Source: Dermatophagoides farinae (taxonomy: Eukaryota > Arthropoda > Arachnida > Sarcoptiformes > Pyroglyphidae). Taken from it: a stretch of 64,000 nucleotides of DNA. How positions within the stretch are numbered: position 1 is the stretch's first letter; each line of letters starts with the position of its first letter. The position numbers and the translations under genes were made by a program. Of this stretch, positions 2,916 to 42,225 are shown one piece after another. Where the stretch lies: the NCBI RefSeq assembly GCF_024713945.1, contig NC_134681.1, forward strand, positions 3,759,501 through 3,823,500, in the 5' to 3' direction. A model generated the notes under the pieces. It did no database searches and was not told where the DNA came from. It saw only the letters and a list, made by a program, of their open reading frames with translations.

Positions 2916-5439
2916 TTAATAAAGAGAATCCTTTAGGTTATTGACAATTGAACGTCGCTTGGTTACTGCCGATGCATTCATTTGTTCAGTAGTAACAATA
3001 CATGATTTCATTCCATGCAATACACGATTACGTCGTTCATCATTATCATCATTGTCATTACCATTATCATCAGGATTCATTAAATCTTTTAGACTTGATG
3101 AAGAAATTCCGACCAATTTGGCACAAAAATCAGCCTGATCTTCAGATGATGATATTGATTTCCGGCCATATTGTTCAGTTTTTTCTGCAAAATAAAGCAT
3201 CATTGTCATAATATCAATAATCACATTTTTGAAGCGATGATGAAACTATACCTTTAAATGGGCAAAAATCCTGTTCACTTAGTATTCCACGCCAGAATGC
3301 TTCATCCACTTCGAACAAAGCTTGCATAACATTAATCTGTTTAGGTATCTCTCGTTGCATGGCTTCAGCTGATGGTTGTCGAAATTCTGAACTACCAACA
3401 ATGGTTGGTGCAAATATATTGGCCAATGCCTGACGATTCATTTTCGTAACAAGCTCAGCTTTAGCAACATTTTGTAAATGAAGAAACAAAAACGCCAATG
3501 AATCACGATTAGGCAATGGTAATTGACAGATGACACGTTTAAGAACCATGATTGGACTATTCATATCATTGTCACCAACATCATCATCTACACCTGAATC
3601 GAGTGGTTTATTCGAATGTGATGATTTTACTGAAGTTTGAACAATGTGAACTATAAGTATGAAAGAATGGAGAGAGAACAAAACAAGATCAGATTAGAAA
3701 CAAACTAAAAATTATAAGACTTACCAGAAGCACGATAGAAATCATTCCACATAATGCGAGAAATAAGTGAATCATCAAGATCACGTAGAAACATTTTAAC
3801 AACACCGCAAATTGTATTCACCGATATTATGGTCGATAAATTAGGCATACCGAATTCTGCTTTAAGAATTTTTCGTCGTAATTCTCGTGTTTCTTGATCA
3901 GTGCCAGAGATACGATACACACCAATAACCGAGGAATCATCCTTGGTTCGTGAATCTTCTAATGCTAAACAAATACGACGATCAATTTCATTACAGCAAT
4001 GAATCAATAATGGTGGTATACATGGTCGAACCGAGTCAGGTACAAAATCACCAATAATAAGAAATTTACCACCAACCCTACGACTATCTCCGGTGAATGC
4101 AATCATTTTCTTGATACTTAGATTGGTCGACATGTATGGTAAACATGGTTTGGGCAATTTATCACGACAACGATTATGACAAACACCACGACACTCAATG
4201 CAAACGCCATATGAACAACAGAAACCGATATTTTTATTACAAACGGTACACATTATTGTTTTGAATGCTTTCTTATCGACAAATCTATGCGGTCGGCTAG
4301 CCAAACGATCGGCATCCAATCGTGTTGCCTGTGCATTACGAAGCATTGTTAGTGTTCGTGTTAATGATGTTGATGGCTGTCGATTTAATGATTGACGAGC
4401 TGCTTCTGATAAAGATCGCATTGTTGGTTTAAGAAATTTATCATTATCGTTTGTTGTTAATGTCGGTTCTTTTTTCATCAACGATTTCTGTACTTCCGAC
4501 ATATTGGGCATTAAACAAAAACCAACATTTAAAACTGATTCATTACTAGAATCTTTTTCATCAGTAACTTCTGCAATTGTTTCGAAACGTGATTGTGATA
4601 TCATTCTCGATGTGATTCGTTTAGCTTCTGTTTGTTTGCCACAATTTTTAGACGACAATGATGACGATGGTTTTGGCGGCGGCGGAGGCGGTGGTGGTGG
4701 CGTTGGTATTGGTGCACTTGATAATGTTTGTGAATTTCGAATAGTAATAGCCGGTTTATTTGAATGATCGATACTATCATCAGATTTATCAAATAAAAGT
4801 CCATCATCGGATTCATCATCATCATTATTTTGTGGTACCAAAGTGTCTACATGTTCTAATATTGAAATCAAACTGGTAGTTGATTTACTAAGTCCAATAT
4901 TTTGATTTAAAATTTGTGCTGTCTTTGTTTCTGAATTTTTTTGACTATCCATTTCAAGTATCATTTTTCGTAATATATCCATCTTTTTCTTTAAATTATC
5001 ATGAGATTTTTGAATGGAATCTTTTTCTTTGATTTCACGTGCATATGCACGTTTAATACGATCCCAGCGTAATTGCATTTGTATTACATTATCTTCAAGT
5101 TTCTTTATATGACGATCTTTTTGTTGATTTTCTTCAATAGTCTGTGATAATTTTATACGACATTTATCAAAATTTTCAACTAAACCAATGAATGCTATGG
5201 TGAAACAAACAAACAAACAAATAAAAAAGAAAGTGGTGATCCATTTTGTTGGAATTGAATAACTTAAACTTACATTTTAGTTCATTTTTTGTAATCAATG
5301 TAGGTTGTACCATACGAAACATATCATCAAATTGTGCTAATAATGATAAATTTGTACCATTCGATGATGTTGATTTTGGTGTAGAGCTGATTTTATCACG
5401 CATTTTAGACTTTAAAAATTCTTTTGGGTCATTTGCCAT
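2916..5439 (-). CDS. RACGAP1: RACGAP1 / MgcRacGAP-like Rho GTPase-activating protein (centralspindlin subunit)
   Basis: Four exons on the minus strand: 5439-5274, 5194-3725, 3650-3252 and 3184-2916. All three introns have GT-AG ends and the phases agree (1, 1, 1), giving 767 residues. Order of domains: an N-terminal coiled coil (about residues 55-130), a disordered Ser/Pro linker, a C1-type zinc domain (about 357-407, HRF...CTVCNKNIGFCC...C..C...CHNRC), then RhoGAP (about 430-650) with the arginine finger in GVYRISG (Arg483, codon 3914-3912). This order is the MgcRacGAP/RACGAP1 signature; it forms centralspindlin with the kinesin MKLP1 and drives cytokinesis by acting on RhoA/Rac. Chimaerins share C1-RhoGAP but lack the N-terminal coiled coil. 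The linker has a run of about nine prolines. The start MANDPKEFLK is the first Met of the coiled-coil exon. Human RACGAP1 is about 630 residues; the excess is linker and a C-terminal tail. Confidence 0.92.
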
Positions 5440-6295
5440 GATTGAAATGATTTGATTTTTGTTTTTGATTTGATTAATTATTATTATTAGATTATGATGA
5501 CAATAATAAATAAAAACACCAAGTAAATAAAACAAAAATCAAACCAAGTACACAAAACGAACAAACCGATTGATGACCGTTGGATTAACAACAACAGTGA
5601 AGCAAAGCGCGATTTCGAAATTACAACCGTCATGTTTTTAAATGATTCGGTTAATTTAGCGCTTTTTTTCTTAATTTTTATGTGTTTTATGCTATGCTAC
5701 TACCACTGCTATACTACTACTTCTACTACAGTGCTGCAGCTAACGTTTTCACTTTGCTTTCAACCAAATAACCAGTACAACGGCAACCAATCATGATCGG
5801 CATGCATATCATCAAAAAAAAAAAATAAAGTAGTGGCAAGCAACACAAACCACGTTCATATAATACGTAACAAAATTTAAAAAAAAAAATTTCAATAAAT
5901 TCTGCATTTTGAACCACAACATATAGAAATTGAAGAATTTGAATTTAAATTCTTGTCTTCAATGAATCAATCCTAGAGAAAAAAATGGGTATCATCTATG
6001 TGTACATAAAAATAACATACAATTCTACAATAATTTTCAAAAAAAAAAAAAAAATGCCACCTGTTGAGAAAAAAATAAAAATATCTTCTCAATAGGGCGA
6101 CAAAGATTGATGGATAGATAGATATTCTTGCATCCTCCACTATACTTCACATACACCATCATTACAACCATCACATCAAATACACAAACACACAGATGTG
6201 TATAACTTATACACCCACATTCATCATCATCATCATGTATGATGCATGGATTCAGTGTTGATACATTTACAATACAATAACCGGACGGACAGACA

Positions 6296-7960: not shown

Positions 7961-10900
7961 AAAAAAAATTATTAGCCTGGTGTCAAATGGCCACCAATGG
8001 CTATGAAGGTGTACAGATTAATAATTTCACCAACAGTTGGAGTGATGGTCTTGCTTTCAATGCATTGATACATCATTATCGGTAAATGTTTTAAATTTTT
8101 TTCCACCTCCAAACAATCAAACACATTGATTGATTTCTATATTTCTAATTTTTTTTTTTTGAAAACCAATACAGACCAAAATTATTCAGCTATGGTGAAA
8201 TATTATCAATGGACACCAATGATCGTCTTAAACATGCATTTGAAATGGCCGCTAAACATTTCCATATTGATCAATTACTTAAACCAGATGGTTTGTTATA
8301 TTTACAATTCATAATTGATTTTTTTTTACTTAAAATCCATTTACCAAATATCTAGATGTCAATACGAATAGACCGGATAAAAAATCTGTGATGATGTATG
8401 TTATGTGTTTTTTTCAAGTGATCGAATTACAGCAACAACAACAACAACAACAAAAACAGCAACAATCAACAGAAATTATTCCATCCGGTATTAGCAATAT
8501 TCCAAAACGTTCAATATCGCATTCATCATCAACTACTACATCATCATCATCAACATCATCGGGACATAAACATTCGGAACAAACAAGTATTAAAAGGCAA
8601 TTAAATATACAAACCGGAAAATCGCCGATAATGGATCAATCATCACCATCATCATCGGGAAAGAAAATGAAACGTACCACACAATCTGGTATACCGGTTT
8701 TATCACCTGCTTATCAACGACGTCTTACTACATCCACCACCATCAGCAGTAGTGGTGGTGGTGGTGGCGATCAACAAACTAAATCATCATCAAATGATTC
8801 AAGTGGCAATAATAAAACAATTAACGCATCCAAATCAGATGCTAAACTATTGGCAGGATATAATAAAATTATTGAAGATTTAATGACATTATTATTAGAT
8901 GCCGAAGATCGGCTACAACAAAAACAACATGATGATCATGAAAAATTTCGTTCTGCCAATTTTGAATCATCATTGAAAACGAATGAATCGACAACAACCA
9001 CAACAACAACAACAATGGGACCATCCACCGATTTTAATCAAATATTACATAATCGAATAATGGCCACAATCGAAATGGCTGAATATGCAAAGATGCGGTT
9101 CAGTGAACATGAACAATTCTTAATCGAAATTTCCGATTATTCAGGACGTATAAATCATGCATTTATAAAAGGCAAACGATTGATTGATTCAAATTCAAAT
9201 TTTCGTACAATGTCAACAACGCAACAGCAACAGCCAAATGTGGCTGTATTAATGGATCCACAATCGAAAAATGAAATAGTCATACAAATGAATCTATTGA
9301 ATCAACGTTTCAATGATCTGCGTTCAGCTGCAATTAAACATCAACGTTATCTACAAGATATGCTTATACAGGCACAGAATAGTCAGCTAGAAGAATTACG
9401 AACATTAATGACAAAAACTGAACAAAAAATTTCGCTATTGATTCCGGAAAAAATGGATGAAATTCCATATTCATTTCAATCATTACAGCAACAAATTGAT
9501 ACATACAATCAACTACAGGAAACAATGGATTCTGAACAACAATTATTGAGCGCAATATCAAATTTTGTTGTCGTCGATAGTGATAGTGATGGTAATTCTG
9601 CAATAAGCAACGATTTTGTTGATCAACTTGATGCATTGAATGAACGATGGGCAAACGCTTGTAGAATAACTGAAAATCGTGGAAAATTTCTGCAAAAATT
9701 ATTTGAATGTTGGTCAGCATTTGATGATGAAAAGAAACGTTTGAATGATTGGTTTCAACGTCTTGAAAGACGTTTATCCGATATTGAAGAATCGGCCGAT
9801 GAAACATTGGCCAAAACAACAATGACCGTACAAGATATACGATTTTTGAAAGATATACAACGACGTTTGGAACGAATGCGTACCGATATTGTTTATGGAC
9901 CGGATCAATTACATCATCGTCGTAAACAGCAACCAAATAGTGTAGAAGAAGAAGAAGAAGAATTGAAAAGTTCACCAATTTCAAAAATAACCGGCCATTC
10001 ATATGCATTATTGAAATTGGATACAAAAGGTGATTCAAGATTTAGTCAAAAAATTATTACAAATATTGAAGATATTGGACGTCGTTGGGAAACATTGGTA
10101 GGACAAATTGAATCGATTGAGAATAATGTTCAAGATTGTATTAATCGATATCCAACATTAATGACCAATGATGATAAACCGATCACCATTGCTACAGCTA
10201 AAATGATTGATAATCATGAAATGAAGAGCCCTGTTGTTGATAATGATGAATCAACAACAGAACTTAATAAACATCGTAGTAAAGTAGTAGTCAATCTACA
10301 TGATAGTAATATTCGTGAATGGGAAAACCTAGTCGATTCTTTGATTAAATGGATCAATACGACAGCTGATACAAGCAATAATCTAACTATTGGCCAACAA
10401 GAATTTATTGATTTATTTCAAATGATGAATAAACAAAGTGATATTGTAGCCATCGATTTGATCGATTTTGACTTGACAAAACAATCAAATACACAACAAC
10501 AACAATCGGTAATTGAAAAATATTTAAAACAATGTTCACCTCAGTTACGACAAAAATTACCGCAACCACTATCATCGATATTATGTGAATTATCATTAGA
10601 TAGTGATCATTATGATGATGAAAACGAATTATCATCAATGATTATGGTATTAAAACAAGAAGATCAAACATTATCCCAACTACAACAGGAAATCAAATAT
10701 CGAACGACAGATTTTCGCCAATTAATTCAACGTGCTAATCAACTTTGTAATGAATATGAATCGCAAACATTTCATGAACAAATTGAAAAACGTTTGACTG
10801 AATTGGAACAATGTTGGAAACAATTAGAACAACGTATTGATTCGTTTCGTCAACGTATACGAATCATATTGTCATTGGATAAAATGCATTATGAAACCAA

Positions 10901-13900
10901 TCAATTGATAAATGTATTGGATAAATATCGTGATAAATTTGAACAATTTAATAAACAATTAATGATGACCAATGATAATGATGATCATCAGCTACAACAA
11001 CAACAGATGCAACAACAAATGGAAATGTGTAAAATATCTATTATCGGTAAATTAGATAAAGTACGACAAATGAATCAACGTCTAAATGATTATCGTAAAG
11101 AAATGTCAAATATTTTCATTTGTTGGCCGGATACAGATTCAATCAATGTTTGGCAATGTTTTCGTTCATTTAATTTTGATGATAGTATGATGAAATCATT
11201 AAGTCCATTACAAAAACAATCTATCGTGATTATTATTGATCTTTTACGATTTGAAAGAATTGTTTTACTTATGAAAAATTTAGCTGAATCATTACAACAA
11301 CAAATGCATCAGGTGGCTATTGAATATAGTGAAAAAGAAGAAAAAGAAGCGAAAAATGAAAATGAATCAATCGTGATGAAAGCTGATAAAGTTCGTATTG
11401 CAATTGAACAATTTAATACTTGGTTAGCCAAAGTTATAAATCTAGTTGATGAATATAATGATGATGACGATGACGATGACGATGATGATAAAGATAAAGA
11501 TAATATTCTGGAACAATCAACACACGATGTTGGTGATAGAAAAAATGGTGTTACCATTGTCAATGTGGAACATCATGAACAACAATCCGTTACGGAATTA
11601 CAAAGACAACAGCAGCAGCCACAGCCACAGTCCGGTTCAAAGTTACGTTCATTTGCCGATCTTGCCAATGCAATCGATGGCCGTATATTAATATTGGCTG
11701 ATCTACAAAAAACCGTTGATAATGAACAACAAAATTATAGTTTTGCTTGTCGTCGTGCAGCTGAATTTATTTTTGCTGGCCAAAATGATATTGAACAAAA
11801 AGAATTGATTGAAATCGAAGATGCAATCATGTCATTGAATTGTAATAATTATGATCAACAAACTGGACAATTGATTAGTTCTATACAATCGTTGATTAAA
11901 CGTTGGTCATTGTTGTTTGATCGATTCAAAACATTATTACCACAATTAGAAGATATATCGCCATCGATAACGGTGTTGGAAACGGAATTTTCACAATTAT
12001 TAAAATTCGTCGAATCATCGGATCAATTTCTTGATGAATCCATTGCTATTGGTGACAATGAATCATTGTCATGTCAATTGGCTGAATGTTCACGTCTTAA
12101 ACAATATATGCAAGGTACGGCTGAAGAAAATTTCCAAACCATTATCGATACAGCACAAAAAGCATTGAAACTTTTACTTGGCAATGATGTATTCTATGAT
12201 GTTATACCGGTCATACGTTATATTAAACAAACATGGCTTAGTTTATGTCAACGTATTCTGAATAAATTGGATCGTTTGGAACAGGCACAAAAATTAACAA
12301 TCGATTTGATCAATAATTTGGATGATTATAGACGACGTTTAAATCAATTGGAAAATGAATCACAATTATCCGCTATGGATGATCGTTTAGGGTTGAATGA
12401 ATCACCTGATTATGATTGTATTGATGAACGATCCACATCAACATCGAAATCGAATAAAATGACAACAACAACAACAATGATGATTTATGATCGTTTGATT
12501 TATAATTTACCAACAATTTATTTGAATCGATTGAAACAATTACGTGATGAATATGAACAAAATATTTTAAATGGTGAACAAGCAATCATTATGCAAATGT
12601 TATCATTGATAACATCATCGAATGGCAGTAATAATAACAATCAAACATTGGCATTTGAACAGCTATTAACGCAAGCACGAATACAGATTCCAGAGAAAAT
12701 GGCTCAATTGCAGAATCGATTGGAACAATATCAACATTATTTTAATTATCTAATCGATTCATTACAACAATTGGAACGTTTATTTGATGATGAAAGAAAA
12801 TTCATTGAATTAATCACCGATGAACAAGAACGGCTACAGCGAAGACAGAAAAATGTTGAAGATTTAGAAGATGCGTCACAATTTATGGATCAAGTTGAAG
12901 AATGTATTAATCGCTGTCATAATGATGAACATCGACAATCAAGACGAAAACAAATTGAACAAATATTCACTAATGATTGTCTATTGGATTATTTTCAACA
13001 TTTGTCCAGTATTTCTCAGATATTTGATAAATATCACATTGAATTCAAAAGTTTATGTCGTTTTGATAAAGATTTCTGCACAAGTTTAGAACAATTAATA
13101 CAACGTACAGATAAATTTATTGGTCAATGTCGTGAAGCTGATCACATGATTTGTAAAGTACAAGAATGGATTAATCAAAAATCAATCGATATCATCAACA
13201 ATCAACAAGATGATATGATGTTAACAAATGAATTTGAAATGAAAAGAAAACAATTACTCACTATGCATAATGATTATGGTGAAAAATTTGAAAAATTATC
13301 ATTCAATGAAGCAACAAAACGATTGCAAAGTAAAGTTTATTTTGTCATCAATATTATGGATGATTTGATCAAACAACAACAACAACAACAACAACAGCAA
13401 AAACAAATGCAACAGCCAAACAGTATCAATGAAACTGAATCGATTAATAATAAACGTAACATTATCGTTGGAAATCGAAATCATCAACAACATCATCATC
13501 ATCATCATTTGGCCATTAATTCCAAAATGAATATGGATTCTGAATTATCAACATTGGAAAAAGATTTAGCTGATTTAGGTTCATCAATCAATGAAATGGA
13601 AATAGTATTTGAAACAACAGATAATGAACAAACAATACCGACAATATTGGAACGATTAATCACTGTAAATTGTCGTGAATATGAAACACAATTGTCTGGA
13701 TTTAAAAAACGTTTTGATTTTATACGTAAAATTGCACAACAAGAAAAATTGAATACATTTCAACAGGGACGTTTAGATTATCTGGATAATACACGTACAG
13801 CATTGACAAAATCATTATCATTTCGTGTATCGGTTCTACAAGATCTATCAAAATTATGTCAAGATATTAATGATAATCTTTTGCGATTAGAATCTGAAGC

Positions 13901-16900
13901 TGATCGTCTTAAATTATTCAATGATGGTGATGATGAATCCAAAAACGTTAATCTAGATGATCAAATGGATTCAATTGAAGTGAAACAAAATTGTCGCCAA
14001 ATATTATCCGATATATGTGCGTTGAAAGAAAAACTTGATATTAGCTGTATACGGCATTCAGATATACTTATTGGTATTGAAGAAGTTGGTGCTTGTTATG
14101 ATGAATTATTAACATTGGTTGCTGAACATTATGTTCTCGATGATCAGGATGATCTTGATGATGACCATGATCATCATGATGATGATGATAATCAGAAGGA
14201 TTCATTTGTCGATGAACAACAGCAGCAGCAACGTATAATTGAATCGGAAGTGAAAAATGAAAATGAAAATGAAAATTCGATGGATGTAGATCAAACGATA
14301 ATTGATGATAATCAAAGTGAACAACAACAATTGAAACAATCACCAGTGGTTGAATCTGTTGTCGACAATGATGATGAACAATTGATTGAAAATATAAAAA
14401 TTACTACTACCACGGAATTATTTATGGACACCGTAAAACCATTGGCTGAACGTATGATTAATAATCTACTACTAGGTGAACCAGATATTGATCCAGGTAA
14501 TTCATATTCATTTCAATCATATCTTTGTACATTGAAACGTTTGGAACAAACAATCGAATGTATTGGACAACGTGATCTGATTGAATTATCGCAACGTAGA
14601 CAACATAATCCAAATCGTATGTTTCCATTCATGTTGGAAGAAGAATTATATGTACTGAATAAACGTCTAAATCAATGTCGAAGTCAATTGGAACAATTAT
14701 TATGTATTGCCACTATTACTGGATTAATAACACCATATTCTGGATCATCAATATTGACTAATGATAATCATTGTTCCATACATAAACCATTTGATATTGA
14801 TGCCAGTGCCAATGATAATTATGCAAATATGGAAATAGAATGGCCAATTGATTGTAATCAGATGCCAACATCATCATTAACTGATGATTGGTCAATCAAT
14901 ATTGATCGATCCATTGATTGGGATCGTTTCTCATGTCAATCAATACAATTATTACATTCATTGGAAACAAAATTTGATCAATCGAATCATACATTTCTTA
15001 CATTACATCGTCATCTTAAATTAATACACGAAGATACCATGCAATTTAATGTTGAAATACGTAAACTATGTGATTGGTTTGAGAATGTTGAACTACAGAT
15101 CAATAATGGCCGCATTACAATGATATCGGCTGATCCAAATCGTTTGGATGAAAGTGATTTAAATATGAATGTTGTTGCACGTACACAATCATTGTTGGTT
15201 ACACAGCTACGAACCCATGTACCAATTTATGGACGATTGAAAGTAATCTATGAACGTATTGTGCGTCATTTTACACCGGAAATGGATAAAAATTTTTGCC
15301 ATTATTCATTCGATTTAAAAGCATTATTGGATGCAAAAAATCGTATAAAACATGAAATGGATAAAGTAACGAATAAATGGAATTCAATTGTTCATGAATT
15401 AACATGGCGTCGTCAATGTTTGATTGATATTGCAATGGCACGATCAACAGCAACCATTAATGGCTATCCATATCGTCGTGGTGATGATATTGATTTTGAT
15501 AATCTAATCAAAGATGCTGTACGTCATGAATTATTATTGAATAATAATAATACTACTACTACCGATGATTATCATGATACATTACCATTGGAACAATTAG
15601 AACAATGGCTACAAGAAACCAATGATGAATTGATTGCTATTCGTATGCAAACAAATATATCTGATAGTAATCGTGATAGTATCGTAACGTTACATCGTAA
15701 ATTAAAATCAATGGAACAATCAATGGCAAAACAATTTATGAATTGGATGTTATTGACACGACAACCATTTGCCAATAAATTAAATGTAGCTAATCTTGAT
15801 GAAACGGGACGGAAATCATTATCGAAACGTTTTGAAAATGTATCAATTAATCTTTATCGATTAGCATATTTTGTTGATATGTTTATAACTAGTATGTCAA
15901 ATATTGGCCATATGATTCGTGGCCAATTGGATTGGCTACTATTGGCATTAGAACATTTGCATTGTGTTGATGATTATGTTATACAACAACAACAACGACA
16001 ATCAACAAACGATATGACATTTCCGATTGAATCGATTACATTCCTAGATAATGTTCGTCATACATTAATCAATCATGAACGTATTATTAAACAGATTGAA
16101 ATATTGATCGATGAATTACATGATCATTGTAAACAAATTCAATTGACAAATTGTCATATGGATCATATGATCGGTGAATTTGCCAAGATAAAAAATCTTT
16201 ATCAACAATTGGTTAATAATTTACGTAAATATGGCCTAACAGCATCGGCATCGATTCATTATCAGATGAAAAATGCTTATACATATTTTAATTCATATCG
16301 TCAACGGAAACAACAACAACAGCAACAGCAGCAACATCAACAACAACATAATAGTAGTAGAAGCAGTAGTAATAGTAGTATTGTAAAAAATTGTGATTGT
16401 CGTACAGGAAATAGTAATAGTAACAGCAGTAATAATAATAATAATAATAATACAAATTGGTGTTGCCATTGTGAATATAATCCAAATGAATTAGCAAATT
16501 ATTATCGTCAATCAACAATACAGCTAAATCAATGGCTTACATTTGAAATATATTTGTTGGATTTATTATTGATTAAAATAACTACTAAAAATGCGACAAC
16601 AACAACAACAGCAGCAGCAGCGGTGTTGATGCCATCAAATATTCTTAAATTTACAATTCGACGTGCAGAGGTAAGTAAATAACATTTTGTTTGTTTCTAT
16701 CTATGATCTAATCAGTGATTTCCAACCAATAAGTGTTTTTTTGTTTTTGTATGAAAAATATGTTTTTTTTCTGTCATGAAAAACTATAGAACTTGGTTGT
16801 AAAACACTGTACATGTGTGTGTGTGATTACTACTCTATGATTATGTTTTTGTTTTTTTAGTTTAATAATTGATAATAATGATTATAATGGATTCACTGGA

Positions 16901-22521: not shown

Positions 22522-25500
22522 GGGTGGGTGGTTTTTCATTTTTTTTTTTGATTGTTATTTGATACAAAAAAAAAATTTGCCAAAAATAGCTACTACAACA
22601 ACAAGTGAAAGAAAAGAAAAAAAAATTAGAAACCCAAATTTTCGGGTTCTCACTATATAAACAACTGGTTTATTGAATCAGCCATCCATGTATATATATA
22701 ATAATAATAATAATTTGTTTATTCTTGATTCATATTTTTTTTTCTCAATTCCGTGTCTGTGTGTGTGTGTGTTTGTTTGTTAGAAAGACAGACATATGAA
22801 TTTTATTCATTTCAACGAAAAGATGAAGGGTCAAGATTTATTTTTTATTCCGTTGTTTTTCATTTTTGATTTTTTTTTTTTTTTTTTTTGATTAAATCGA
22901 TTATTAAATCAATATCAATACCGATGATTAATGTTTCATTCATTTGTGTGTGTGTGTATGGCTGTGTGCCAAGTGTAAGAATATCATCATGTAATTCAAA
23001 TCAATCAGTCATTGATCTAGTCATCAAACGTATCTCATACATTGTGGTTTGTGTGTGTGTGCGCGTTATTTGTGATCATTAATCAGTGTGATATTTACAA
23101 CAAACGAACAAACAAAATGATTTCAAATGCAAATCAATGCAATTCATCAATAATGAACATGAATCACATTTTTGTTCATCATCATTATAGCCGTAATAGA
23201 AAATGGCCAAATAATTTGATTGTAAACAATGAAAAAAAAACTGATATACACACAGAACACACACTATTTTAATTGACAATCAAATCAAATCAAATTAATT
23301 TTTTTTTCGTGTTTATTAATTTGTTTTTTTGTTTCCCCCCCCCGGTCACTCTAATAGCGATTAACTGATCTACAACGTGTTATGGATGATTTAGCCGCTA
23401 AATTACATGAAGCTGAAATGGTCAAATCAAAATGGACACCAATATCGAATATAACATTCGACGATTTACCTCAACAAAGATCTCAATTGAAGGTAATCAT
23501 TGGTTCATGTTAACCCACTTTCTTAATTGTTTTTTTTTATATTTTAAATTAGACATACAATCAGATGTATGTAGCACCGGTATCTCGTGATGTGATTCAT
23601 GTGAATGAAATTGCTGCTCGTTTAACTGGCCGTAATGTACCGTTATCACATGGTAATCTTAAATCATTAGAAGAAGTAACTACACGTGCCCGTCTATTAC
23701 GTGTGGCCATTGATGAACGATCACGTGAATTGGATCAAATTCAACATGATCATGGTACGGCCCAACAACATTTTCTTACCGAAGCTGTCGATGAACCTTG
23801 GGAACGTGCTGTCACTAATAATAAACTGCCTTGCTACATCAAGTAAGTACACATCTTCACTTTTTGTATATTGAATTTAATTCTTTTTTTTCTGTTTTTG
23901 TTATAGCCGCCAAACTGAAACTGTACATCTTTTTTCACCACGTTATACAGAAATTATTGATTCAATGAATGAATATAATGAAGTACGTTATGCTGCATAT
24001 CGTACAGCAATGAAATTAAGACGATTACAAATACAACTTGGTCTTAATAATGTTAATTTAAATAATCTTGCCAATGCATTTGAACAACATGGTGTCGGTC
24101 CTAATGGTGGTGGTGGTGGTGGTAAAAATAAATCTACGATGATGAAAAATGATAAATCCACCACTAATTCCAATGATTCATCTGCTAATAATAATAATGA
24201 TAACAACGCTAAAAACAACAAACAAGAATCAACAACAACCAATAACCATGAAGATGGTATTAATGATGAATTACCATATGAACTTCGATTGATTGCTGTA
24301 CCAGATATTGTATCCTGTTTGAAACAAATATTTGAAACAGCTGAAATGGAACGACAACAACAACATAATAAACAGGAACGAACATCATCAAGTAACAAAA
24401 AACAGCAACAATCATCAGCAACAAAAGATAAAGAAAATAGCAAAACAATGGCCAATAATAATAATGATGATCATTCCAAATCATCATTATCAACATCAAC
24501 ATCGTCATCATCATCAGCGGCCATTAATGTGCCTCTTTGTGTTGATTTATGTCTCAATTGGCTACTAGATCTTTATGATGCGTATGTTTTATTTTTTGTT
24601 TTGTTTTGTTTCGATGACTCGAATCTATTTTTATTCAAATTTTTTTGTTCTTCCGAAAAAAGGCCTTCACGTGCCGGTTTTATACGACAATTTTCATTCC
24701 AAGTTGCCCTGGTACTTTTGTCACACATATCATTGGAACAGAAATATATTTGTAAGTTTTTTTTTCTCAAATCATTTCTGTTTTGATGATTTTTTTTCGA
24801 AACAATTTTTGTTCTAAAGATTTATTCAATTTGATTGCCGATGAAAATCAACGTGCCGATGAACGACGTTTCGGTCTGTTAATCTATGATTGTCTTCGTT
24901 TACCAAAATTATTGGGCGAAGTGGCCGCATTTGGTGGCACAAATGTTGAACCAAGTGTTCGTAGTTGTTTAGAGATGGCATCGGCATCTGGTTTACGGCC
25001 ACCGAATGGTTCCGGTATCACTGTAGATCAGGTATTGGCATGGATACGTGCTGAACCACAATCATTAGTATGGTTAGTTGTATTACATCGATTACGATTG
25101 GCTGAAAGTAGTCGCCATCCAGCTAAATGTAATAGCTGTCGACAATATCCAATTCAAGGTTTTCGTTATCGTTGCCTAAAATGTTTTAACTTTGATCTAT
25201 GTCAGTATTGTTTTCTATCCGTCAATTCGGTTAAAAAACATAAACCATCGTAAGTGATTCTTTTTGCCGTCGTTATTGTTTTGAATAAATCTAATTTTTT
25301 TTTCTCTCTTTCTCTTTCTTTATAAAGACATCCAATGCAAGAGTATTGTGTAGCCACTACGTCAAAAGAAGATATGCGGGATTTTAGTAAAATTCTTCGA
25401 AATAAATTCAAATCTGGCCGTTATTTTAAACGCCATCAAGCATTAGGTTATCTACCTGTACAATCATTACATGAAGGTGATCGATTAGTGGCTGAAGAAT

Positions 25501-27515
25501 CGGCACCATCATTTGTTCATACATTACATGGATCATATTCACATGCACCATCATCAAATACAACACCGGTTCATACGTTGTCCTATCCACAACGAGCTGC
25601 TAGTCCTGGTTCTATGACCACTAAAAGAGATTTAGATTTTATGGTTGATTCACGTTTTGTTCAAAATAATAATAATTCACTTCATCAACAACAACAACAA
25701 CAACAACATCATTACACACCAATTCGACCTGGTCCATTACCGCCATTACCGGTGAATACGAACAACACTGTTGTTGGTATCTATGGTACACGGCCAATTC
25801 ATCAACAAAAATTACAACAGTTAACACCACGAAAACAGTTGCAAACATCTGCGGAACATCATCATCATCAATTAATGGCCGCTAATCAATCACCATTATC
25901 TGGACATCGAATTACACCAACCACCACTATTACATCATCAACATCATCAAATACAGTTGGTGATCATAATCAATTTGTACGAATGTCACCATCACGTTCT
26001 AGTCTTAAATCTAATGATGATATACATCAACGTCTTGGTAAATATGCAAATCGATTAGCCGAATTAGAACATCAACAGCAACGACAAAATAATCAACATC
26101 AGTTATTGAATCGTAGTGAATCACTTCGATCTGGACGTGCTTCACGTTCAAGTAGATTTGATTCATTACCACCGGTAGCAATGCAAGCAGCATTGCATCA
26201 ATTACCTCCACATCATCCACATCGTCGTAGTTCATTAAATCATCCAACTGCTGCTGGTGGTGGTGGTGGTGAACGTCATCATAATCAGATTATGATTGGT
26301 CATCATCAACAACAGCAAAAACAATTTCTATTAACATCAGCACCACAACCAACAATACAAAGTCCAACGGAAATGTTATCGAAAATAGCTGCAGATCAAC
26401 GTAATGAGCTTGAAATTATAATACAACGATTACAAGAAGAAAATCGGTTAGTTTGTTTTGGAAATTTTCTATTTATAATGAAAACTTTTTTCTATTCTAT
26501 TTTCAAATATAGATTATTGACGAATGAATATAGCCAATTGAAAGATAAAGATGATGATGATGATAATTATAAAAATAAATCATCGAATGATCCAACAACA
26601 ACAAAAAGAACAACTATCAAGAATGAATCGATAAATAATAATAATAATACTATGGAAACAAAATCAAAAACAATAAACAATCAAATTGAATTGAATGATA
26701 AATCCATAATGACCAATGGTAGTGGTCGTCGTAGTGGTAATAATAAAACCGATTTAACACCTTCACCGACGTCATCATCACAAGCATCACCAAATTCACC
26801 GGATAATAATAATACAACAACAATAACCATCGCGGATAATCAGCAACCACAATCAACATCATTACCATCATTTTGGTTGGATGAAGTACGACGATTAAAA
26901 AATGATCGAAATCATCTTGAAACAAGAAAATTTGAATTGGAAAAATGTAATAAATTATTGGAATTACAATTGAATCAATTTAAAACTTATATCAACACCA
27001 CTGGTACATTGGATGAACGTACGAAACAAAAATTAGAGAATCGTATACAGGAAGCAGAAAAACTTCTCGATGAACAGCAACAACAACAACAACAACAACA
27101 GCTGAGTGATCAGAATCGAGATGATTCATCATCGTCGATAAAAAAATTACCTAAAAATCAAACAACAACAGCAGCAGACATTTTAAAATTTGATGATGAC
27201 GATGGCTATGATGATGAGAATAAAGAATCGAATAAATCAATAAAAAATAGCCAATTATCGTCAACCACATATCATCAGCCATTATTACATACGGCAGCTG
27301 ATCGTATAAATAATGCAATGGAATCATTGGTAGATGTATTGAATCAAAACGATAATAATAATGATGATGATGATAGAGAATCATCAACAAATGGTCATTT
27401 TAAAAATGGTAAAACAACAACAACATTATCGATGACAAATGGTCAACAACAACAACAATCATCGGCAGCAGCAACAACAACGGTAGCTACTAACAAACAT
27501 TCAAGTCGTGTTTAA
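7939..27515 (+). CDS. Dys: Dystrophin (CH2-spectrin rod-WW-EF-ZZ-coiled coil), very large and lacking a visible CH1
   Basis: Fifteen coding exons, all GT-AG and phase-consistent: 7939-8081, 8175-8290, 8356-16670, 18616-19545, 19630-19907, 19995-20110, 20196-20608, 20689-21663, 23358-23492, 23553-23842, 23907-24581, 24663-24751, 24820-25249, 25328-26446, 26513-27515. The sum is 15,027 nt, 5,008 residues, against about 3,685 in human. Dystrophin ties cortical actin to the dystroglycan complex. Order: CH2 domain (residues about 5-115), a long rod of helical spectrin-like repeats broken by Gln/Asn/Ser/Asp runs, a final spectrin repeat (exons 9-10), a WW-like domain (about 3889-3918), EF-hand region, ZZ zinc finger (CNSC...RCLKC...CQYC...), and a tail with two coiled coils ([31 protein letters not shown]) that in the family bind dystrobrevin. 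Start: the first in-frame ATG after a stop at 7891. Oddities: CH1 not found; WW ligand residues changed; most of the rod in one exon. Confidence 0.93.
8356..16670 (+). other. Dys: Giant 8.3-kb dystrophin exon encoding the end of CH2 and most of the rod
   Basis: One uninterrupted exon of 8,315 nt (residues about 87-2858) between acceptor TCTAG at 8351-8355 and donor GAG|GTAAGT at 16671. It begins with the last CH2 helix ([14 protein letters not shown]) and a Gln run, then a Ser/Thr/Gly-rich hinge to about 8830, then helical repeats with recurring Trp (for example [25 protein letters not shown]). Low-complexity insertions include an Asp run near 11460-11490, Gln-His near 13372-13506 and Asp-His near 14140-14190. 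In vertebrates the same rod is split over dozens of exons. Confidence 0.85.
16671..18615 (+). other. Dystrophin intron 3 (1.9 kb)
   Basis: Starts GTAAGT and ends TATATAG. No exon recognised inside. It holds CA/GT tracts (for example 16902-16924, 18148-18176, 18423-18442), a GGT run at 17680-17700, A/T homopolymers, and a pair of degenerate hAT-like inverted termini at 16713-16809. As one of only two long introns in the gene it could house an internal promoter. Confidence 0.6.
16713..16809. mobile_element. Possible decayed hAT-like MITE (97 bp)
   Basis: Left end CAGTGATTTCCAACCAA and, inverted, right end CAGTGTTTTACAACCAA match at 15 of 17 positions. The left end differs at one of 15 bases from the terminus of the intact MITE at 51909-52031. 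No 8-bp duplication is visible (GATCTAAT versus TACATGTG) and the interior is unrelated, so this is either a degraded copy of another subfamily or chance. Confidence 0.3.
21664..23357 (+). other. Dystrophin intron 8 (1.7 kb)
   Basis: Donor CTG|GTAAGT at 21664, acceptor CTAATAG ending 23357. It contains GT tracts (21909-21930, 22474-22518), homopolymers and many short repeats, and no exon I can support. It lies just before the exons for the last spectrin repeat, WW, EF-hand and ZZ, the place where short dystrophin isoforms commonly start in other animals. Confidence 0.6.
22474..22518. repeat. (GT)n microsatellite, about 45 bp
   Basis: Perfect GT dinucleotide tract inside dystrophin intron 8. 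Confidence 0.9.
23796..23940 (+). other. Dys: Degenerate WW domain of dystrophin (split by a 64-nt intron)
   Basis: The segment aligns without gaps to the dystrophin WW domain: PWERA and the closing Pro are kept, with KLPCYIN before and [11 protein letters not shown] after the intron at 23843-23906. Compared with the family, the first Tyr of the YY pair is Cys (codon 23832-23834, residue 3901), the His after Asn is Arg (23908-23910, residue 3905) and the second signature Trp is Leu (23929-23931, residue 3912). In WW domains those positions form the proline groove and the Tyr pocket for PPxY ligands such as the beta-dystroglycan tail. Confidence 0.8.
26447..26512 (+). other. 66-nt stop-free, frame-preserving intron in the dystrophin coiled-coil region
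   Basis: Flanked by CG|GTTAGT and AAATATAG|A. Removal joins ENR to LLTNEY, continuing a clear heptad pattern; retention would add 22 mostly hydrophobic and aromatic residues without a stop. The homologous join in dystrophins (LEEENRNLQAEY-like) supports splicing as the default. Confidence 0.7.
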
Positions 27516-34563: not shown

Positions 34564-35024
34564 GTACTGAATTCTTAATTGTTTTTCTTTCAAACAAACA
34601 AAAAAAAACGAATGCTGTGGCACTGGTAATAATCCAACAACAGGAAAAAAAATTTAACCTTTTTTTTGTGGAACATATCTTACATATAAAAGCTTTAAAA
34701 AGCTGTAAGCAATCAATTGATCGATCGAATGAATTGTGCCCATATCATTGTGCATTGTGATATATATATATATTTGAAAGAAGAAATAACGGGATTAAGG
34801 AAAAAAACCGATAATCCAATTTGTTTTTTTGTTATTTATATCGCTTTTAATAATATCACCTCTCAAAGTAAGTGAAAGAAAAAAAAATGAAAAATGTAAA
34901 GAAATATTTTTCTCATCAACATCTCGTGATCAATGTACAGTTAATCATTCAATTGTTTTTTTTTTTGTATTTTTGTGTGTGTTTGCTTTATAGGAAACCA
35001 ACAGCAGCAGCCAAAGCAGTCAGA

Positions 35025-37720
35025 ATGGAAAGTTGTAATTCAAGACAAGGATTGCTGTTAAAATCATTTTCAGCAAATAGTGATTTTAGTGATGATTATC
35101 ATCAATCACAAATCATCAATAATAATGACAATGTGCCACAAATTTGTCTTGATAATTATGGATCTTCGGATATTACCAGTAATGGTGGTGATGGTGTTCA
35201 AAGTATTGATGGTGTAACAACATCAACATCAACAACAACATCAACGACTGCAGATACAGGTCCGGCAAAATTTTTTATTGGTGATGGTGATGAAACCATG
35301 ACGGTATCAAGTCATCAATCAAATTCAATAGGAAAATTGGCAAATTCACGAGAATTTGATAAAAGTTCTTGTTCATCAAATGAAGATGATGATCATATGG
35401 CAACAATGAAACAATCAAATACTGAATCGACAATCATTATAATGGATCAATCACCATCATCATCACCAGTGCCAATTGATCCATTTGATATGATTATGGC
35501 TAAAGGTAATGATTCAACATTAATCGATGATGATGATGTTATGATCAATGAACGATTACATTTCTTAACAAATTGGCCCGATAATATTGGTCGCACGAAT
35601 TTACCAGTAGTAGGTGGTGGTGGTGGTCCATTGACAGACAAACATTTCGTTGATGATCAACATGATAATAATGAAAAACAACATCATCAACATGGTGGTA
35701 TTGGATCTAGTTGGCAGATATTCATGGCGGTTATGATTGCAGCAAGTGGTAATTTTATTGCCGGCCTAATACTTGACAATAGTAAATCATGGAATGTATT
35801 TCTTTATACACCTGAATTATATTATCTTGTGCCGATATTGTTGAGTTTAAAAGGCAATCTTGAAATGACAATGGTTGCACGTCTAAGCACATTGGCTAAT
35901 ATGGGAATGTTGAAAAGTGTTCGACGTGTTTTACATATTCTATTATATAATATAAGTTTGGTACAAACACAAGCAATCATTGTATCGTTTTTAGCATCAA
36001 TTGTAACATTATTAGCATTACGAATGGAAGGCGAATCAGATATTGATCTGCCAATAATTGGTGATGCAACATTATCATCATTATCGATCATCAATGCAAC
36101 CACAAATGCAAATACAATGCAACAACAACAACAATTACATTTACACGGTGATGGTACTGCATTAACGCGTAAATGTTTGCTCATTTTTTCAACATCTTTA
36201 GCTACTGCTAATGTTGCCTGCCTTTTATCCAGTAAGTTGACATTGTGACAATTTTTTTTTCATTAATTTTTTCACTTTTTTTTATTATTTTTAGCTGTGA
36301 TTATGATCACATTGACTATTGCATTACATTATTATAATGTGAATCCAGATAATTTTGTCACAGCATTGGCTGCATCATTTGGTGATATAATAACATCATT
36401 TCTTATTGGTGTAATTGGTGAATTTATCAATGAAAGAATCACTTATCAACCGACAGATAATGATGCCGTATTTTTATTGGATTCTGTTCGTTATCATGAT
36501 GATCTGCAATCACCAATGATGGCTATATTGATTATAATGTTATTCATTGCCATATTTCCATTGTTGGCATGGTTTTCTTGTCGTGATGAATCGAATAGAA
36601 AAATTTTACTTGGCTTAGGTGCATGGCTACCAATATTATTATCAATGTTGATTGCATTCGTCTCTGGATTCGTGTTACGTTTTGGTGCAGTTGCATTTAA
36701 TTTCATGTCATTATTTCAACCACTTATTAATGGGTAATTATCATTGCATTTGTCAAATAATTAATTAATCTAATCTAATTTTTTTGTTTTTTTATTTGTT
36801 TGTTTCTACTTTCACAGAGTTGGTGGTAATTTGGCTGCTATTACAACTAGTCGATATTCGACCGAATTACATAAACAAAAAGCACAGGAAACGATTGTAA
36901 CCAATTTAGAACATCGATCAGCATCGGCATCAACTGCATCATCATCATCATCATCATCATCATCGAAATCACCATTGAAATCAGTCATGTCATCTACATT
37001 GCATAGTTTCTTACGATTAAGCGGTATGTGATTGATATTTAGGTTCGATTTAATTTTATCCAAAATCATTTGTTTGTTTGTTCGCAAAAAATTAGATAAT
37101 CGTAATCAGATGATTTTACTTTACATACTAATGGCCATTGCTGTACATTTATTCTATGGAATATTAGCGCCTGCTATTCATACATCGGATCATCATCACA
37201 TTACATGGTTATTCTACATGTTTTATATTCCAGCAACTATTCTACAGGTATGGAAACCGATCAATTAATCAATCAAATGCAATTAATTGTTGTCTATTGA
37301 ACAAAATAGGTTCTATTATTACTTATAGTGACACGTTTCTTCGTCGATTTTGTTTGGTGGTTACATTATGATCCCGATACAAGTGCTATACCGATACTAA
37401 CATCATTGGGTGATATATTGGGAACAGTTTTCTTATATATTGTTTTCATTTTATTACAATTTATTGGTGATCAATCTGCCGCACCACCATTGAATAATAT
37501 TGATGATTTAGCTACTGGCACTGTTGATATAGCTGCTAATTTAATATCGACAACAACAACGACATCCTTACCAACATTATATGAATTTATAACCAAAAAT
37601 AATGATCCAATCAGAATGGCTATTGCATTGGTATCAAATGAAAATCCGACAACAACAACAACAACAAATACATTTATACGACATTTGATGATGAATCCGA
37701 CAACACCAACAGCTATTTGA
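35025..37720 (+). CDS. SLC41A: SLC41 (MgtE-type) magnesium transporter
   Basis: Five coding exons: 35025-36231 (exon begins about 34994), 36295-36733, 36818-37023, 37096-37247, 37310-37720; GT-AG, phases consistent, 804 residues. SLC41 proteins are MgtE-like plasma-membrane Mg2+ carriers or Na+/Mg2+ exchangers with two homologous membrane halves. Seen here: a hydrophilic Ser/Asp/Asn-rich N-terminus (about 225 residues), then membrane segments and family motifs: LVPILLSLKGNLEMTMVARLST, NPDN...AASFGDI, FQPLINGVGGNLAAI..SR.ST and the second-half IPILTSLGDILGT (quoted in parts). The C-terminus has a Thr-rich tail. The start, MESCNSRQG, is the first in-frame ATG after a spliced 5' UTR with good context (CAGAATGG). 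Human members are about 510-570 residues; the excess is the N-terminal extension and a Ser-rich loop. The first-half TP of the family reads TA, and the second-half PDN reads PDT. Confidence 0.9.

Positions 37721-38954: not shown

Positions 38955-42225
<3,271 letters not shown>

Follow-up and report, generated by a model that had tools for sequence, protein, structure and literature searches.

What is new here is that, in the genome of the house dust mite Dermatophagoides farinae, no dystroglycan was recognised beside a dystrophin with a disabled WW domain, and that other members of the dystrophin complex were found. The explanation that we favor, with a probability of about 0.68, is that the gene encodes a true dystrophin that has lost its dystroglycan partner, and whose WW domain would serve as a structural spacer without PPxY binding. 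These findings point to an animal in which dystrophin functions without the membrane partner that it classically has. The gene lies in a window of 64,000 nucleotides (C5:3759501-3823500), and the whole genome measures 62.4 Mb in 22 contigs. A group 7 allergen gene of this genome shares 164 of 165 residues with Der f 7, so that the mite is D. farinae or a species barely distinguishable from it. Positions below are those of the window unless a contig is given.

A dystrophin gene with a conserved C-terminal block

The gene and all its features described below are on the + strand of the window, and its 3' end is near 27.5 kb. The spliced region around the WW domain gave 410.7 bits to the dystrophin chain 9c3c_D vs 98.8 bits to dystrobrevin (structure 9c3c, which we take to be the rabbit complex, is termed mammalian here). 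Judged by its domain order and by its best match, which is dystrophin rather than dystrobrevin, the gene is a true dystrophin. On the spliced region, Pfam reported EF-hand_2, EF-hand_3, and ZZ in that order (PF09068, 102.3 bits; PF09069, 87.6 bits; PF00569, 49.2 bits), but it reported no spectrin repeat and no WW domain N-terminal of this EF block; the last spectrin repeat and the WW domain adjoining the block were seen by the alignment to 9c3c_D alone.

Five exons from 23553 onward join into an open frame, with four GT-AG introns of 64, 81, 68, and 78 nt. The first exon (23553..23842), recognised by its open frame, a GTAAG donor, and the 9c3c_D alignment, carries the last spectrin-repeat region, the first half of the WW domain, and two bases of an Asn codon. 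The second (23907..24581) contains the end of the WW domain, a linker, and the part of the EF-hand region matched by PF09068, and the third (24663..24751) continues the EF-hand region, as indicated by its splice sites and the open joined frame. The fourth (24820..25249) holds most of EF-hand_3 and most of the ZZ finger and is well conserved; like the second, it was delimited by splice sites as well as Pfam matches. The last is an open frame (25328..27515) that completes the ZZ region, encodes the C-terminal part, and may contain further introns; it matches dystrophin over the first ~55 residues, and no match was found in the PDB for the sequence past the ZZ region. Low-complexity inserts rich in Asn, Ser, and Gln fill a gap between aligned stretches of the EF region (24106..24516), where 137 mite residues stand against 25 in the mammalian chain (residues 3135-3159), an excess of ~112.

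A 2782-residue open frame at 8334..16682 is the probable rod region of the gene. It gave a weak, spectrin-like match to PF25034 (19.7 bits, below the cut-off) and no match in the PDB, and its start appeared CH2-like, a possible sign of actin-binding CH domains, when read by eye alone. This frame has hardly any recognisable spectrin repeats, and its evolution far outpaces that of the C-terminal block.

Dystrobrevin and dystrotelin belong to the same superfamily and share the EF-hand and ZZ parts with the mite gene, but they are without a WW domain. The mite gene retains a spectrin repeat as well as the scaffold of the WW domain, and its best match is dystrophin. Dystrotelin is described as being without the dystroglycan-contact residues in the available part of PMC1790709.

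Three contact residues of the WW domain are replaced

The WW domain is encoded in two halves (23796..23842 and 23907..23940) separated by a GT-AG intron of 64 nt (23843..23906). Joined at 23842/23907, its 27 residues align ungapped to the mammalian dystrophin WW domain, and the joined exons align ungapped to 9c3c_D over 157 residues (129.4 bits). This alignment confirmed what an earlier note on this DNA had proposed: the groove Tyr is replaced by Cys (TGC, 23832-23834), the pocket His by Arg (CGC, 23908-23910), and the second signature Trp (Trp-2) by Leu (CTT, 23929-23931), with structural residues kept, namely PWERA including Trp-1, the Asn, and the last Pro. The second Tyr is retained as well. 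The codons start at 23796 with CCT TGG GAA CGT GCT, reach the intron (gtaagt...ttatag) with CCT TGC TAC ATC AA, resume with C CGC, and close with CAT CTT TTT TCA CCA, the last at 23938-23940.

The groove Tyr, the pocket His, and Trp-2 of WW domains contact PPxY ligands, and the dystrophin-dystroglycan structure of Huang et al. (2000) reportedly has the same contact positions. Compared with the WW-EF-ZZ region of dystrophin in PDB entries 1eg3/1eg4, 8yt8, and 9c3c, the mite protein is alike in domain order, in the ungapped WW domain with its Trp-1, Asn, and last Pro, and in its EF-hand and ZZ parts, but it differs in the three replaced residues and in the extra EF residues.

The Pfam WW model did not report the spliced mite domain at E<=10, whereas the mammalian sequence scored 41.3 bits. 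A genome-wide WW search also omitted the mite domain, but this omission is no evidence because the intron splits the domain; the valid test is the spliced sequence. Among the 29 other WW hits of the genome, which as Pfam hits were chosen for their resemblance to the model and are hence biased toward good scores, the groove residue was Tyr in 22 and Phe in 7 (aromatic in 29/29), and Trp-2 was W in 23, Y in 3, F in 1, and absent from the match in 2, with no Leu. The pocket His was found in just 17/29 of these hits and is therefore the weakest of the three changes: the losses of Tyr and Trp are exceptional, and the loss of His alone would not be. A local model was built from 25 of the 29 hits, the other 4 being dropped for gaps; the mite dystrophin WW domain scored 4.9 bits with it and the mammalian one 36.6 bits, and members left out in turn (n=25) ranged from 28.2 to 64.6 bits.

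Identity to the mammalian sequence was 8/12 in the first half of the WW domain, 6/15 in the ligand half, 12/12 at the start of EF1, and 7/25 in the remaining EF1. We do not claim that the ligand half decays faster than its surroundings: when the alignment of 157 residues was cut into 143 windows of that length, 29 of them, counting the ligand half, were as low or lower. Since the ligand half is not the least conserved stretch, our claim is limited to specific contact residues being gone. The suggestion of the earlier note that this dystrophin may not bind dystroglycan through its WW domain holds in one part: the predicted loss of PPxY binding by the WW pocket is well supported by the sequence comparison.

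No dystroglycan was recognised in the genome

It had also been asked whether a dystroglycan with a C-terminal PPxY is kept in the same genome. Two Pfam models and three motif patterns were used to look for one, along with a query of beta-dystroglycan, and none was recognised. DAG1 (PF05454) gave 0 matches at E<=1 over the 62.4 Mb, and the alpha-dystroglycan model a_DG1_N2 (PF18424) likewise gave 0 genome-wide at E<=1. As a control, the DAG1 model scored 456 bits on mammalian beta-dystroglycan and 241.7 bits on the tail alone. It should be noted that the search was six-frame and exon by exon on one assembly of a fast-evolving genome, and that its own controls gave no signal either, so that silence does not equal proven absence.

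The beta-dystroglycan query gave a single match genome-wide (L059, C4:5134037-5134234) with an E value of 9.31. This locus was rejected as a dystroglycan: it scored no better than chance, showed several hydrophobic stretches close to its start when read by eye, and gave no Pfam family at E<=1. It is a 430-residue frame with several PPxY motifs toward the C-terminus and is a possible partner of other WW proteins.

Codons for PPPYVP had 0 matches in the genome. The Ser/Thr-PPPYV pattern had 3 matches genome-wide, equal to the reversed control, and none resembled a dystroglycan tail: L061 has 23 codons before a stop but sits in a 43-residue frame amid non-coding sequence, L062 lies inside a longer frame, and L063 is in a 72-residue frame, with no dystroglycan-like frame adjoining L061 or L063. 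A juxtamembrane-motif pattern had 9 matches at 3 mismatches vs 5 for the reversed control. Inspection of all 9 found no PPxY in frame; eight of the frames were of 3-121 residues and one of 383.

The earlier note had further offered EF/ZZ binding of dystroglycan as a fallback. EF-hand_3 and ZZ are indeed kept, but long inserts of low complexity interrupt the EF region, and as no dystroglycan was recognised, such a fallback has no visible ligand.

Other members of the dystrophin complex

The genome in which dystroglycan was not recognised does contain sarcoglycans, together with a syntrophin and a dystrobrevin-like gene. In the same profile search as DAG1, Sarcoglycan_1 was above the cut-off at 4 loci. 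The best of these gave 37.5 bits to mammalian beta-sarcoglycan, and a second had no match in the PDB. At the locus C2:7494538-7495694, the match is split into four pieces, two with internal stops. Sarcoglycan_2 (40 bits) revealed an alpha/epsilon-type sarcoglycan. This gene (L060, C5:5273151) is ~11 kb from a Sarcoglycan_1 locus (L020, C5:5284216) and ~1.5 Mb from the dystrophin gene.

The syntrophin (L027) has a PDZ domain and a split PH domain (PH_17, 23.9 bits). The dystrobrevin-like gene (L010, C2:6183665-6183931, - strand; EF-hand_3, 29.6 bits) is strongly diverged and scored 146.1 bits to dystrobrevin vs 97.4 to dystrophin. It is the sole other EF-hand_3 gene: that model finds this gene and the dystrophin gene only, which argues against another dystrophin gene whose WW domain is intact.

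Probable partner loss and its alternatives

In the reading that we favor, dystroglycan would have been lost, or changed past recognition, in the mite lineage. With the ligand gone, the WW groove would have decayed, and the residues by which the domain packs against the EF-hands would have stayed under selection; retention of the WW scaffold residues is expected if the domain still packs in this way. The domain may then act as a spacer that sets the last spectrin repeat apart from the EF-hand/ZZ block, and the tie of dystrophin to the membrane might run via the sarcoglycan/dystrobrevin/syntrophin side. This would probably be a loss of partner and not a switch of binding mode. Whether house dust mites, and perhaps all astigmatid mites, have a dystrophin-sarcoglycan complex without dystroglycan, in which the WW domain is purely structural, is a question on which we would put even odds.

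If true, the mite would break a rule. A 2023 review states, in the portion available, that dystroglycan arose at the same time as dystrophin, that the two have coevolved throughout, and that phyla differ very little in the dystroglycan-interacting domain (PMC10293626). The mite would represent a natural uncoupling of two proteins described in this manner and a natural test of dystrophin function without the classic matrix receptor. According to the accessible part of PMC4582122, the dystrophin-binding site of dystroglycan is conserved in every phylum except Placozoa and urochordates, and an arthropod form of dystroglycan is reported in insects, crustacea, and chelicerates, with the tick Amblyomma triste used; the words mite, Tetranychus, and Ixodes are absent from its main text as available. 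None of the literature matches listed dealt, by title or start of abstract, with mite dystroglycan or mite dystrophin; the word dystroglycan occurs once in a paper on TRPA1 of bee mites (PMC5050203). Drosophila dystroglycan has two WW-binding sites and needs one or both of them, as far as the excerpt of PMC2660313 goes.

Reduced or divided complexes are described in other animals. In ascidians, a lineage that dropped parts of the complex, as the mite may have done, dystroglycan is kept and dystrobrevin and syntrophins are absent, based on the section of PMC1790709 at hand; the mite pattern is the reverse. In Caenorhabditis elegans, which offers an invertebrate complex of DYS-1, sarcoglycans, and DGN-1, the sarcoglycan and dystroglycan parts overlap spatially just partly, and dystroglycan genes are kept, with surface expression of DGN-1 needing DYS-1 (PMC11164867, in part); in the mite, none was recognised.

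The main alternative is that dystroglycan is present but diverged beyond our searches, and is bound via EF/ZZ or through a WW-tail pair that changed by co-evolution. We consider this unlikely, but it keeps real weight because proteins of the mite complex evolve fast: the best sarcoglycan reached just the score given above, and another sarcoglycan and the rod had no PDB match. It would also fit the good state of EF-hand_3 and ZZ and the finding, in the accessible text of PMC4582122, that dystroglycan has become extremely divergent in certain parasitic worms. In addition, mouse beta-dystroglycan 777-878 carries muscle and synapse health without the last 15 residues (PMC13250547, available in part), so that the two proteins could stay partners even if nothing but WW binding were lost. 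Against this, the diverged sarcoglycans were detected, both Pfam models for dystroglycan were silent at E<=1, and the tail query and the motif patterns stayed at chance level.

The WW groove could instead have been rebuilt for a new, non-PPxY ligand. The kept scaffold and the hydrophobic Leu-Phe around the Trp-2 position are in line with such a change, but nothing positive speaks for it, and a groove Cys and a Leu at Trp-2 each occur in 0/29 of the other WW hits; we regard it as improbable. As the earlier note proposed, the mite dystrophin may have a ligand other than dystroglycan.

Gene model and neighboring frames

An alternative exon that restores the contact residues is unlikely. Reading through the intron inside the WW domain leads to a stop at once (PCYIK*), and the introns of this part of the gene, 64 and 81 nt long, leave hardly any space for a hidden exon. 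In a scan restricted to YAG acceptors and GTRAG donors, the next pyrimidine-AG sites after 23906 were at 23950 and 24007; their use would remove 44 and 101 nt, respectively, and shift the frame. Rescue by RNA editing was rejected as well. A-to-I editing changes A to G, and rescue of the Cys and Arg codons would need the opposite change.

The weakest alternative, an artefact of misassembly or of a wrong gene model, is very improbable: one assembly is the whole basis of our analysis, but the five exons keep an open frame across four GT-AG introns, homology is ungapped on both sides of the 23842/23907 junction, and, while changing one base would turn the Cys or the Arg codon into one for Tyr or His, a single base error cannot explain the Leu because CTT and TGG differ at all three bases.

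Four other frames of the window were named by eye. A WD-repeat, ATG18/WIPI-like frame (1290-2618, - strand) and a RacGAP-like frame with C1 and RhoGAP (2916-5538, - strand) lie on one side of the dystrophin gene, and an SLC41-type transporter-like frame (34872-37720, + strand) and an SRPK-type kinase-like frame with a long insert (38955-42107, - strand) lie on the other.
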